From an uncultured Eubacteriales bacterium (GTDB lineage Bacteria > Bacillota > Clostridia > Christensenellales > Borkfalkiaceae), in NCBI GenBank assembly GCA_902767225.1, contig CACXGN010000001.1, forward strand, positions 62,001 through 126,000: a stretch of 64,000 bases of DNA. The letters run 5' to 3'. The position numbers and the translations under genes are program-made. Numbering within the stretch: position 1 is the stretch's first letter; each line of letters starts with the position of its first letter. The notes beneath the pieces are model-generated. The model made no database searches. It saw only the letters and a program-made list of their open reading frames with translations, and had not been told where the DNA came from. Positions 34,479 through 39,458 of the stretch are shown in pieces.

Positions 34479-35612
34479 ATGGAAAAAATAGGTATTTTCG
34501 GCGGAACGTTCAATCCCGTTCACGCCGAACACGTGGAAGTTGCGATAGCGGCTATAAACGAACTGAATCTTGATAAACTTATAATTATGCCGACCTTTTC
34601 GTCTCCGCATAAAACTTTAATTCCTGCCTCGGCGGAAGATAGAATAAATATGCTGTCTATCGCCTTTTCGGGGATTGATAAGGCAGTTATTTCGGATTAC
34701 GAGATAAAAAAGCAAGGCACGAGTTTTACCTATCTTACCGTAGAGCATTATAAAGAGTTGTATCCTAACGCAAAACTTTTCTTTATCGTCGGGGGAGATA
34801 TGCTCACCGACTTTAAAACTTGGAAATTTCCCGAAAGGATACTTGCCGCGGCAACGCTTGCGGTTTTTGAAAGGGAAAATTTCAAAACCGATTTTGCCGC
34901 CGAGAAAAAATATTTTAAGCAAACTTTCGATAAAGATTTTATAAAACTTTCGTATATCGGTAAGAATTTTTCTTCGACTAAAATCCGCGTTTATTCTATG
35001 CTAAATTTGGACCTTGAAGGAATTTGTATTCCCGCCGTTTCAAATTATATCAAAGAACGCGGCGTTTACCGTGGGGATGAAAAGATAGATTTTCTTCTTT
35101 CGCACTTGACAAAAAAAAGACTTATCCACACGGCGGGGGTTGCCGTTACCGCCATTAAAAAAGCGAAAGAACTTAATCTTCCCGAAAGCAAGGTTTTAAC
35201 GGCGGCACTCTTTCACGATTGCGCTAAATACCTTTCGCCGGAAGATTATCCGGATTTTACTTTGCCGCAAAATGTTCCGCCGCCCGTCGTTCACGAATTT
35301 TTGGGCGCATACGTTGCCGAAAAGATAGTGGGGATATTCGATCCCGAAATTATAGACGCGATAAAATACCACACCACCGGAAAGGCGAATATGACTACTC
35401 TCGGTAAACTTATATTCGTCGCCGATATGATTGAAGAAAATCGGGACTACGACGGTGTGGATAAACTTCGCGCATATTTTGACGGGGATTTCGATAAGTG
35501 CTTTACCGAGTGCTTAAAGGAAGAAACCCTGCACCTTTTAAGAAAAAAAATGCCCGTTTATTTCGAAACGGTCAACGCATACGATTTTTACGTAAATAAT
35601 AATAAACAATAA
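34479..35612 (+). CDS. nadD: NadD-YqeK fusion: nicotinate-nucleotide adenylyltransferase plus HD phosphohydrolase
   Basis: 377 residues with two domains. Residues about 1-195 are NadD: GIFGGTFNPVHAEHVEVA at the start, FIVGGDMLTDFKTWK near 107, and NFSSTKIRVYSML near 168 complete the nucleotidyltransferase site; it makes NaAD. Residues about 205-370 are YqeK-type HD: KKRLIHTAGVAVTAI, ALFHDCAKYLS with the HD pair near 248, and KYHTTGKANMTTLGKLIFVADMI. YqeK homologues cleave Ap4A. The two are separate neighbours in B. subtilis, and are joined here. The mRNA is likely leaderless. rsfS follows by 11 bases. Confidence 0.93.
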   Translation: MEKIGIFGGTFNPVHAEHVEVAIAAINELNLDKLIIMPTFSSPHKTLIPASAEDRINMLSIAFSGIDKAVISDYEIKKQGTSFTYLTVEHYKELYPNAKLFFIVGGDMLTDFKTWKFPERILAAATLAVFERENFKTDFAAEKKYFKQTFDKDFIKLSYIGKNFSSTKIRVYSMLNLDLEGICIPAVSNYIKERGVYRGDEKIDFLLSHLTKKRLIHTAGVAVTAIKKAKELNLPESKVLTAALFHDCAKYLSPEDYPDFTLPQNVPPPVVHEFLGAYVAEKIVGIFDPEIIDAIKYHTTGKANMTTLGKLIFVADMIEENRDYDGVDKLRAYFDGDFDKCFTECLKEETLHLLRKKMPVYFETVNAYDFYVNNNKQ

Positions 35613-36330: not shown

Positions 36331-37227
36331 ATGCTTTTTAAAAATAATAAAAAGAAAAATTCCGAAGAAGAAATAAAGGCTTTGCCGAATAATGAGTTAA
36401 CCTTAACAGAAGAGACTGCCGTAACCGAATTTGAACTTTCGGAAAAAGAGCAAAACCCTATCTCAAATGATAAATTTTCAGAACTTGCGACCCTTTTGGG
36501 GAAAAATTCGGACACGGTAAAAGACGAGTGCTACGTTTATCAAATAAGGAATTTTTTAAGCCGAGTCGGAAAGGTTATAGTCCGCTACGACGTTTCGGGC
36601 AAAGAATTTAGCAAGATAGAAGAGAACGCCGCGATATTAAATCTCGGCGAAATAGTTCTTGCACCCGCATATCTTTCGTCTTTAAAGCGCGAGATAAAAA
36701 CTTCCGAATATCCTAAAAACAGAATAAGGGCGATAATAGATTTCCCGTTCGGCGAATCTTCTTTTAAAAATAAGATCGTCGCCGTGAAAGAGTGTGTTAG
36801 ATCCGGGGTAAAGGGGTTTTACGTAACCATGCCCGTTTTATTGCTTGAAGACGCGAAGGGAAAAGAATTCAAAAAACAGGTCAAAAAACTCGGCAAACTT
36901 GCTAAAAGCGTGGATATAGCGATCTCCGCCCAAGAACTTACCGAAGAAAAGATAAAGTCGGTAGTAAAAGCGGTTGAAAAATCCAAAGTGGACGGCGTGA
37001 CGCTCGTTTTCGGAGACGCTTCCGAAAACGAAATAACCGAAAAGATCGCGTATATCAAAAAATACAAAAGGACCAAAACTCTCAAAATTTTGGGCAACGT
37101 GCTGTCCGAAAAAGGGCTTACCGCGCTGTTTAATTTGGGCGTAGACGGAGTTCTTACCCCGTATGCGGACGAAATAGGCAAAGACCTGTTTAAAGATTTT
37201 AATATAAAAACCGTCAATCTTCGCTGA
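36331..37227 (+). CDS. DeoC-like TIM-barrel protein, probable non-catalytic
   Basis: 298 residues. An acidic, disordered N-terminus of about 55 residues precedes a TIM barrel with the DeoC pattern: EIVLAPAYL near 109, IRAIIDFPFGES near 131, SGVKGFYVTMPVLLLED near 155 and LGVDGVLTPYADE near 272. In deoxyribose-phosphate aldolase the segment VKTSTGF carries the Schiff-base lysine. The corresponding stretch here seems to be LVFGDASENE, without that lysine. So I infer a degenerate relative with changed or lost activity. AAGAGG SD is present. Confidence 0.6.
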   Translation: MLFKNNKKKNSEEEIKALPNNELTLTEETAVTEFELSEKEQNPISNDKFSELATLLGKNSDTVKDECYVYQIRNFLSRVGKVIVRYDVSGKEFSKIEENAAILNLGEIVLAPAYLSSLKREIKTSEYPKNRIRAIIDFPFGESSFKNKIVAVKECVRSGVKGFYVTMPVLLLEDAKGKEFKKQVKKLGKLAKSVDIAISAQELTEEKIKSVVKAVEKSKVDGVTLVFGDASENEITEKIAYIKKYKRTKTLKILGNVLSEKGLTALFNLGVDGVLTPYADEIGKDLFKDFNIKTVNLR

Positions 37228-37232
37228 AACGC

Positions 37233-37261
37233 TTTACAAGGCGGGTAGGGGAGATTATAAT
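37233..37261 (+). promoter_or_regulatory. Promoter of the riboswitch-controlled ribU-tsaE gene
   Basis: TTTACA (37233-37238), 17-base spacer, TATAAT (37256-37261). Confidence 0.7.
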
Positions 37262-37271
37262 TTAAGTATAA

Positions 37272-37382
37272 ATCTTTGGGGCGGGGCGAAATTCCCCACC
37301 GGCAGTATAGTCTGCGAGCCGATTTTTCGGTTGACGGGGTGCGATTCCCCGACCGACGGTATAGTCCGGATGTGAAAAGATA
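37272..37382 (+). promoter_or_regulatory. FMN riboswitch (RFN element)
   Basis: ATCTTTGGGGCGGGGCGAAA begins a classical RFN element, followed by TTCCCCACCGGCAGTATAG and TCTGCGAGCC, then a central hairpin, GATTCCCCGACCGACGG and TATAGTCCGGATG-AAAAGAT at the end. It lies between the promoter and the fused ribU-tsaE gene. FMN binding should switch off riboflavin import, and also the downstream t6A genes. Confidence 0.95.
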
Positions 37383-37399
37383 AAATATTTTTGTTTTTA

Positions 37400-37426
37400 C
37401 GCCCCGATTTTTATGGGGTGTTTTTT
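37400..37426 (+). terminator. Expression-platform hairpin covering the SD
   Basis: CGCCCC (37400-37405) pairs with GGGGTG (37415-37420) and is followed by TTTTTT at 37421-37426, directly before ATG 37427. GGGGTG is also the only SD candidate, so one hairpin can end transcription or hide the ribosome site. Confidence 0.75.
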
Positions 37427-38422
37427 ATGACCAAAAAAACTTTTTCAACCAAAAATATCGCGGGGATCGCGATGTTCGCCGCACTATCTTACGCGGTTTC
37501 GTTTTTAGAGTTTCCTATATTTCCCGCGGCGGGTTTTTTAAAACTCGATTTTTCGTTCGTGTTTATTCTTCTCGGCGGTTTTATGTATGGCCCTATCGCG
37601 GGGGTGCTTATCTCCGGCGTTAAGGAAACGCTTAAACTTATGACATCGAGCACCGGCGGAGTGGGTGAACTTGCAAACTTTATCGTCTGCGTGGCTTTTA
37701 TCATAATACCGACCGTCGTATACCATTTCAAGAAGGGTATCGTAACAGTTTTAATCACGCTTTTGATCGGAATACTCGTTCAGACGGCGGTGGCGCTGAT
37801 GTGCAACCGCTATATAATGTTCCCGATGTATGAACTATTCTTTAAAATGCCGGCAGAAAAAGCGTTCGAGTTGCTTTGGTTGTATATTTTGCTTTTTAAC
37901 TTGCTCAAAGGCGTTATGATCAGCGTCATAGTGCTGCTGCTTTATAAGCGCATTTCTCACTTATTTAAGGCAATAAACTTGCAGTCTGAAAAAGCGGATG
38001 ATATAATAAGTATAGACGATAAAAGCGAAATAGTAACTTCTTCCGAAAAAGAGACTATCGCCGTGGCGAAAGAGTATGCAAAAACCCTTAATAAAGGAGA
38101 CGTTTTGCTCCTATCCGGCGATTTGGGCGCGGGGAAGACGCACTTCGTTAAAGGCTTGGTGCAAGGGCTTGGCATTAAAGACGAAGTTACAAGCCCCACT
38201 TACGCGTATCTTAATATTTACGGGAATTACGTCTATCATTACGATTGCTATCGGTTAAGTTCGGGGGAAGACGCGGTAATGCTAGGGCTTACCGACTACT
38301 TTGGAAAAGACAATATTTCGGTTATAGAGTGGGCTGAAAACATTAAAGACGTTCTGCCCGATAAGGTAAAGACCGTCCGTATCGAAAAATTAAGCGAAAA
38401 CGAGAGAAAAATTATTCTATGA
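37427..38422 (+). CDS. Fusion of riboflavin ECF transporter RibU and t6A ATPase TsaE
   Basis: 331 residues in one uninterrupted frame. Residues about 1-180 are an ECF S component of the RibU type: six hydrophobic helices, FAALSYAVSFLEFPIFP near 18 and GFLKLDFSFVFILLGG near 36. A 20-residue linker leads to TsaE (about 206-331): GDLGAGKT (231-238), VTSPTYAYLNIYG near 256, YHYDCYRL and ISVIEWAENI. TsaE is the P-loop ATPase of threonylcarbamoyl-A37 tRNA synthesis. A TTG at 37979 with AAGG upstream could start TsaE alone, so internal initiation is not excluded. tsaB overlaps by ATGA. Confidence 0.93.
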   Translation: MTKKTFSTKNIAGIAMFAALSYAVSFLEFPIFPAAGFLKLDFSFVFILLGGFMYGPIAGVLISGVKETLKLMTSSTGGVGELANFIVCVAFIIIPTVVYHFKKGIVTVLITLLIGILVQTAVALMCNRYIMFPMYELFFKMPAEKAFELLWLYILLFNLLKGVMISVIVLLLYKRISHLFKAINLQSEKADDIISIDDKSEIVTSSEKETIAVAKEYAKTLNKGDVLLLSGDLGAGKTHFVKGLVQGLGIKDEVTSPTYAYLNIYGNYVYHYDCYRLSSGEDAVMLGLTDYFGKDNISVIEWAENIKDVLPDKVKTVRIEKLSENERKIIL

Positions 38423-39030
38423 ATTATCTTGCGATTGACACGAGCAGTAAAAACTTAATAGTTATTTTATCCGTCGGCAAAAAAGATTATATCGCTTACG
38501 ATAGCGATTGCGGGGTAAAGCACTCCGAAACGCTTATGCCGACCGTTGAAAGATTGCTGCTTGAAGCGGGCTTATCTATCGGCGATATTGACTTTTTCGC
38601 ATGCACGGTGGGGGCAGGGTCTTTCACGGGTATAAGAATAGGCGTATCTACCGTAAAGGCGCTTGCTTTCGCAACGGGAAAACCCGCGCTTAAAGTAACT
38701 TCGTTCGACGTTATAGCGTATAATAAAACCAGTGGAAAAGTGCTTGCCGTTATAGACGCGGGGCACGGCGGATATTACGTTTCGGGATATTCCGACGGCA
38801 AAGTCGTTATCGAGCCTTCGTATATCGACAGAGAGCGTATTTTTGAACTTTCAAAAGAATATACCCTTTTATCTGCCGAAAAGTGCGACGGAATAGATTG
38901 TGAAATAGTCGATCCGGTAAACGGGTTAAAAACGGCGGTAAAAGAAAACGCCGACAAAGTAACTTTTGATCTTGACGAAATTTCGCCGCTATACGTAAGG
39001 CTAAGCCAAGCGGAAGAGGGAAGAAAGTGA
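38419..39030 (+). CDS. tsaB: t6A biosynthesis protein TsaB
   Basis: 203 residues, ASKHA-fold partner of TsaD in the t6A complex. YLAIDTSSKNLIVILS at the N-terminus, HSETLMPTVERLLLEAGL near 37 and GAGSFTGIRIGVSTVKALA near 67 are strong TsaB motifs. Overlaps the upstream gene by four bases (ATGA) and is overlapped by rimI. tsaD is not in this window. Confidence 0.95.
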   Translation: MNYLAIDTSSKNLIVILSVGKKDYIAYDSDCGVKHSETLMPTVERLLLEAGLSIGDIDFFACTVGAGSFTGIRIGVSTVKALAFATGKPALKVTSFDVIAYNKTSGKVLAVIDAGHGGYYVSGYSDGKVVIEPSYIDRERIFELSKEYTLLSAEKCDGIDCEIVDPVNGLKTAVKENADKVTFDLDEISPLYVRLSQAEEGRK

Positions 39031-39458
39031 GATTTGAATTCTTAACCGAAAAAGACGCCGAGAAGATCTTGCGGTTTGAAAAAAAATCGGACTATAAAGA
39101 CGGGTATTCGGAAAAAGTTTTGCGCGCTTCTCTTAACCGTGAAAACGGATATTATCTCGCTTTATCAGAAGATGACCTATCTGCGATTATTTCGTTCACC
39201 GTTTCGGAAGATTTTGCGGATATAGAAGAAGTGTTGGTTAGCCCTTCCGAGCGGAAAAAAGGTTACGCATTTTCGCTTATAAATAAAGCCGTGGAAATCA
39301 TTAAAGAAAAGGGCGCGAAAAAGATTTTTTTAGAAGTCAGAAGATCGAATCTTCCCGCGATAAATCTTTATATTAAAGCGGGATTTAGTAAAATTTCCGA
39401 AAGGAAGAAGTATTATCAAGACGGCGAAGACGCTTTAATCTTTATAAAGGAGATCTGA
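39027..39458 (+). CDS. rimI: RimI-type GNAT N-acetyltransferase
   Basis: 143 residues, GTG start overlapping the tsaB stop. Acetyl-CoA loop region: VLVSPSERKKGYAFSLINKA near 71-90, then IFLEVRRSNLPAINLYIKAG near 98-117, the RimI pattern. RimI acetylates S18 N-terminus, and is widely placed with tsaB/tsaE. GSER/KKGYA is a slight variant of RGxG. Ends in a TGATC overlap with the hydrolase. Confidence 0.9.
   Translation: MRFEFLTEKDAEKILRFEKKSDYKDGYSEKVLRASLNRENGYYLALSEDDLSAIISFTVSEDFADIEEVLVSPSERKKGYAFSLINKAVEIIKEKGAKKIFLEVRRSNLPAINLYIKAGFSKISERKKYYQDGEDALIFIKEI

Follow-up and report, generated by a model that had tools for sequence, protein, structure and literature searches.

A Riboflavin Transporter Component, RibU, Fused in Frame to the t6A ATPase TsaE and Recurring within One Bacterial Order

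Introduction

Why would an ATPase serving tRNA t6A synthesis be encoded in the same reading frame as a vitamin transporter? The question is raised by a gene of an uncultured Eubacteriales bacterium, located in the 64,000-nucleotide stretch of DNA analysed here (hereafter, the window), in which the riboflavin transporter component RibU continues into TsaE. TsaE is usually, if not by strict definition, a free gene, and here its frame is joined to that of RibU. We asked, step by step, what this frame encodes, how it is controlled, whether it recurs, and how the junction could have arisen. The fused gene, its upstream control elements, and the tsaB and rimI genes lie on the + strand, and coordinates refer to the window.

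One Reading Frame, Two Complete Domains

The ORF reading of the window gives a stop-free frame of 331 aa, from ATG 37427 to TGA 38420-38422, so that the fused ribU-tsaE gene spans 37427..38422. Its first part (aa 1-182; 37427..37972) is a six-helix RibU domain, i.e., the S-component of an ECF riboflavin transporter, recognized by ECF_trnsprt (PF12822; aa 9-173, E 2e-25) and by the RibU structure 3p5n (PDB search; aa 8-182, E 2.5e-24); PF07155 scores 25.9 bits on this half, slightly below its cut-off of 26.7. After a linker (aa 183-204; 37973..38038), predicted to be disordered, comes a complete TsaE P-loop ATPase domain (aa 205-331; 38039..38419), matched by Pfam TsaE (aa 205-329, E 7e-38), by TIGR00150 over the same residues (116 bits for a cut-off of 60.1), and by the TsaE structures 5np9, 5mvr, and 6nak (aa ~205-329). 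The TsaE motifs GDLGAGKT, SPTYAYLN, and VIEWAEN are each found in the window's protein, and the Walker A, SPT, HxDxYR, and EW motif residues are invariant across the 18 fused proteins compared. The fusion in one frame of a complete RibU with a complete TsaE, which the original prediction had read from the sequence, is therefore confirmed by the frame itself and by the Pfam, NCBIfam, and PDB matches. The structure model of the fusion contains the six helices, a disordered linker (pLDDT under 50 at aa 181-198), and the TsaE fold (mean pLDDT 82.7, pTM 0.55); the domains are predicted with confidence, the relative arrangement of RibU and TsaE is not.

The downstream genes, tsaB and rimI, belong to the families predicted for them and overlap as expected. 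Indeed, tsaB (38419..39030) starts at ATG 38419 in an ATGA overlap with the fused gene, and rimI (39027..39458) starts with the GTG at 39027 in a GTGA overlap with tsaB. On the upstream side, a 298-aa protein of unassigned function (36331-37227) resembles the IMP dehydrogenase barrel only weakly (E 9.5e-5, under the cut-off). The window also carries a second fusion of neighbouring functions, namely a NadD-type nucleotidyltransferase and a YqeK-type HD domain in one 377-aa frame (34479-35612).

The fused copy is the only TsaE found above the family cut-off by profile search in this genome, a 1.24 Mb draft in 21 contigs that is 98.8% complete. A weak match to the TsaE family (21.9 bits, below cut-off) was seen elsewhere, at G000:C7:35682-35810 inside a 356-aa frame, and probably corresponds to another P-loop ATPase. 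The other t6A families are represented, TsaD and TsaC above cut-off elsewhere in the genome and TsaB next to the fused gene. In E. coli, TsaE is reported to be an essential protein (PMC4330362), and it may be essential in this organism as well. On the transporter side, a member of the EcfT/CbiQ family is found above cut-off. Moreover, ribB, encoding the DHBP synthase of riboflavin synthesis, was not found in this genome by a search that was positive in 14/14 control genomes, and the organism therefore probably needs to import riboflavin via RibU.

An FMN Riboswitch Upstream of the Fused Gene

Upstream of the fused gene lies a full-length FMN riboswitch aptamer (RF00050; 37268..37385, 110.5 bits, E 7.5e-25), itself preceded by a promoter-like site, TTTACA-17-TATAAT (37233..37261), called by consensus match at 11 of 12 letters. 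The putative expression platform is an intrinsic terminator-like hairpin (37399..37421; -11.9 kcal/mol, z -2.9), whose T-run reaches the start codon. Because aptamer, terminator hairpin, and promoter-like site are found together, control of the fused gene by the FMN riboswitch is well supported at the sequence level. The same riboswitch is present at 30 of the 33 fused loci tested, the misses being G045, G285, and G035, the last of which is cut by a contig end. Another regulatory RNA of the window, a ribosomal protein L10 leader (RF00557; 51211-51340), scores 48.4 bits for a cut-off of 44.

The Fusion Recurs within One Order

The fusion had been presented as a lone oddity, together with the proposal to search related lineages for it. 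This search found a stop-free RibU-TsaE frame in 45 genomes (that of the window and 44 more), all from one order, and we therefore rejected the reading of a unique oddity. Counting the window in both sets, 4/44 genomes of its genus (G000, G012, G022, and G035) carry the fusion, while most of the others have ribU and tsaE as neighbours, and 42/396 sampled genomes of the order are fused, distributed among families f3 (27), f32 (10), f10 (2), f20 (1), f24 (1), and f1 (1, the window). Outside the order, the class (roughly 370 more genomes) and the phylum (roughly 380) were sampled non-exhaustively, and no stop-free RibU-TsaE frame appeared among the best matches listed; in a few of these genomes, ribU and tsaE are adjacent but unfused. 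Those relatives that are named in public genome records are Clostridia of the gut, including Candidatus Coproplasma.

A Junction That Probably Absorbed the tsaE Promoter

In many split relatives, tsaE is preceded by a promoter composed of TTGCAA (or a close variant), a spacer of 16-17 nt, TATAAT, and about 6 nt before the ATG. Such a promoter lies 4-11 nt from the start at 35/68 split loci, versus 78/6209 ATGs in the window's genome, the latter count being drawn from 363 kb. With a -10 box only ~6 nt before the ATG, transcription of tsaE would start on the initiation codon or close to it. Likely leaderless tsaE messages of this kind, with the conserved and unusual -35 box TTGCAA, are seen for instance at L047, L072, L125, and L132 (families f1, f32, f24, and f19). 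In some members of the genus, this box reads TTGCAG and doubles as Leu-Gln codons near the end of RibU. The ribU stop of the genus relatives comes after INLQNS in some genomes and, in others, after INLQSSPENDTIEK, where it adjoins the tsaE ATG; in the window, there is no stop. The linker of the window carries the remnant of the ancestral promoter, TTGCAG-17-TATAAT (37979..38007), a call based on homology with the split relatives, since a generic promoter scan misses it (TTGCAG matches TTGACA at 3/6 positions). At the residue aligned with the former tsaE Met, the window has Ser (AGC), and after the remnant no in-frame ATG, GTG, or TTG occurs before GTG 38063, which lies within the TsaE domain and lacks a ribosome-binding site.

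These arrangements suggest a route in which the ribU stop would have drifted downstream through the tsaE promoter until both the ribU stop and the tsaE start were lost, producing the fusion. The junction offers an unusually clear view of how an upstream gene can absorb a promoter and a start codon, with intermediates that survive in living relatives.

Probable Repeated Origin and Three Kinds of Fused Gene

The tree of the joined RibU and TsaE domains (111 loci, 44 fused and 67 split) requires 11 changes between fused and split states, and branches supported at 95% or more make 9 of these unavoidable; such counts give no direction, gain versus loss being undecidable from them alone. Within the genus, each of the four fused genomes occupies a separate branch of this tree. 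The RibU half gives 12 changes, 7 of which are forced, and the TsaE half, with few columns, 11 and 2. The promoter-ATG layout of tsaE is common to split relatives in f1, f32, f24, and f19, and the ancestral state was thus likely that of adjacent, separate ribU and tsaE genes. Given this shared layout and the 11 changes that the tree needs, a single old fusion followed by many losses is disfavoured, and the fusion has apparently been made several times independently within the order.

Three kinds of fused gene can be distinguished. The four fusions of the genus, that of the window among them, are young, with no obvious internal start and a fast-evolving linker (pN/pS 0.65). The second kind, in f32, retains the tsaE signals inside the open frame: TTGCAA-17-TATAAT-6-ATG in five g82 genomes and TTGATT-17-TATACT-7-GTG/ATG in four g52 genomes, and only Met or Val occurs at the internal start position. 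Because a full internal promoter and start are kept in these open frames, f32 probably makes a free short TsaE alongside the long fused form. The third kind is an older fusion, shared by 23 f3 genomes in one clade. Its linker holds a motif, HW[E/D/N]G.SL, conserved at the amino-acid level through synonymous codons (pN/pS values are 0.45 and 0.57, compared with 0.22-0.30 for the domains), and lacks a conserved start codon. An internal start of the form TGGGAGGG-8-TTG was considered for this clade and rejected, since Glu is also encoded by GAA or gives way to Asp or Asn, and Leu is also encoded by CTC, CTG, CTT, or TTA. In two f3 genomes (G186 and G232; loci L089 and L093, compared with L100), a distant RibU (28% identity), still matched by RibU structures, has taken the place of the RibU half, and the frame remains fused; with respect to G162, their riboswitch is 92% identical in nucleotides and their TsaE half ~86% identical in amino acids. 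Several f3 fusions (L105, L112, L113, and others) also bear long low-complexity extensions, either C-terminal after TsaE or N-terminal before RibU.

A Single Polypeptide, or Two Proteins?

We consider it likely that the gene yields a genuine single RibU-TsaE polypeptide, created by drift of the ribU frame through the promoter and start of tsaE. The window's own fused junction rests on one assembly, a draft of metagenome type, no second assembly of the species was found when sought, and ribU and tsaE are separate in most of its congeners, all of which would suit an assembly or sequencing error joining two adjacent genes. On the contrary, removing both the stop and the ATG takes several base changes rather than one indel, the linker aligns with that of relatives with the conserved promoter still in place, and 44 other genomes are fused. 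Error is thus very improbable here, and we rejected it as the main explanation. A different objection is that TsaE is mainly a separate protein, released by linker cleavage or by initiation inside the frame, the fusion being a by-product. The original prediction had pointed to an internal start at TTG 37979 (37979..37981). This unproven candidate does have a TAAGG 8 nt upstream, and the genome uses ribosome-binding sites at such spacing; G045 has GGAGG-8-TTG inside its frame, and the f32 frames keep the signals described above. Against this, the site upstream of TTG 37979 is not common to the three remaining genus members with the fusion, which have no ribosome-binding site at an internal start, and the TTG has other roles, as a conserved codon of RibU and within the -35 box of the tsaE promoter inherited from the split state. 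Furthermore, the window has lost the ancestral ATG, leaving GTG 38063 as next possible start, and the older f3 clade lacks a conserved internal start. A mainly separate TsaE is therefore unlikely, and the TsaE of the window would be made only within the fusion, unless translation starts at TTG 37979 or, weakly, at GTG 38063.

If a single RibU-TsaE polypeptide is preferred, has it been selected to couple riboflavin uptake physically to t6A synthesis? In favour of such coupling are the repeated origin of the fusion, its long persistence in f3, its survival of the RibU swap, and the conserved f3 linker motif. Yet the model predicts a disordered linker, and tight linkage combined with tolerance could give the same pattern. 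We thus regard physical coupling as the selected function as rather unlikely. About one third of adjacent gene pairs are in frame. The adjacent order makes fusion by stop loss easy, and selection is not needed to account for its recurrence within the genus. It is likewise doubtful that the fusion was selected repeatedly in this order as a way to place a t6A ATPase at the membrane and let flavin status set the supply of tRNA modification, with f32 making a free form as well. Most simply, the fusion would represent tolerated or mildly useful co-expression rather than cross-talk between the two activities.

A Possible Mode of Action

For the fused polypeptide, a simple mode of action can be proposed. 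RibU would import riboflavin with the shared ECF module, and the TsaE half would hang in the cytosol on the flexible linker after helix 6, still serving TsaD-TsaB in t6A synthesis. The segment that follows helix 6, YKRISHLFK, is rich in Lys and Arg. According to the positive-inside rule, Lys/Arg-rich segments are cytosolic, which would put TsaE on the side where TsaD-TsaB and tRNA are found. TsaE would in this way be placed at the membrane, as the model suggests. TsaE binds TsaD-TsaB in its ATP state and departs after hydrolysis (PMC9654439), a cycle of binding and release that a flexible tether would allow. The TsaE level would, moreover, follow the FMN riboswitch, with less fused message when FMN is plentiful. 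Tethering, dosage control, and functional coupling are each hypothetical. If tethering or dosage through the riboswitch matters, the fusion would link vitamin status directly to translation accuracy.

Comparison with Known Systems

No fusion of TsaE with RibU, or with any other transporter, was described in the literature that we searched, where papers naming both TsaE and RibU were chance word matches; likewise, no transporter partner of TsaE had been known to the original prediction. The domain combination, absent from this literature, has apparently been made several times from the same gene neighbours in one order.

Compared with RibU of known structure (3p5n, 5kbw, and 5kc0), the first half of the fusion is matched in full (~8-186), with six helices, an FMN riboswitch upstream, and EcfT encoded elsewhere in the genome, whereas the matched RibU chains stop after helix 6 and the fusion goes on to a C-terminal P-loop ATPase. 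The second half resembles TsaE/YjeE/YdiB (5np9, 5mvr, and 6nak) in its complete domain, its full set of motifs, its scores above the Pfam and NCBIfam cut-offs, and its proximity to tsaB and rimI. These proteins are normally free and soluble, whereas here the N terminus is joined to a predicted membrane protein under an FMN riboswitch. The closest arrangement is that of the adjacent ribU and tsaE of relatives in the order, which share gene order, riboswitch, and a homologous junction, and differ in being two genes, with tsaE often under its own promoter ~6 nt before the ATG. Known fusions in the t6A family include Kae1-Bud32 and, of the YrdC-Kae1 type, TobZ and HypF (cited in PMC9654439). There too, a t6A-family domain is fused to another protein; however, these partners are of the same or related chemistry, whereas the partner of TsaE in the window is an unrelated transporter.
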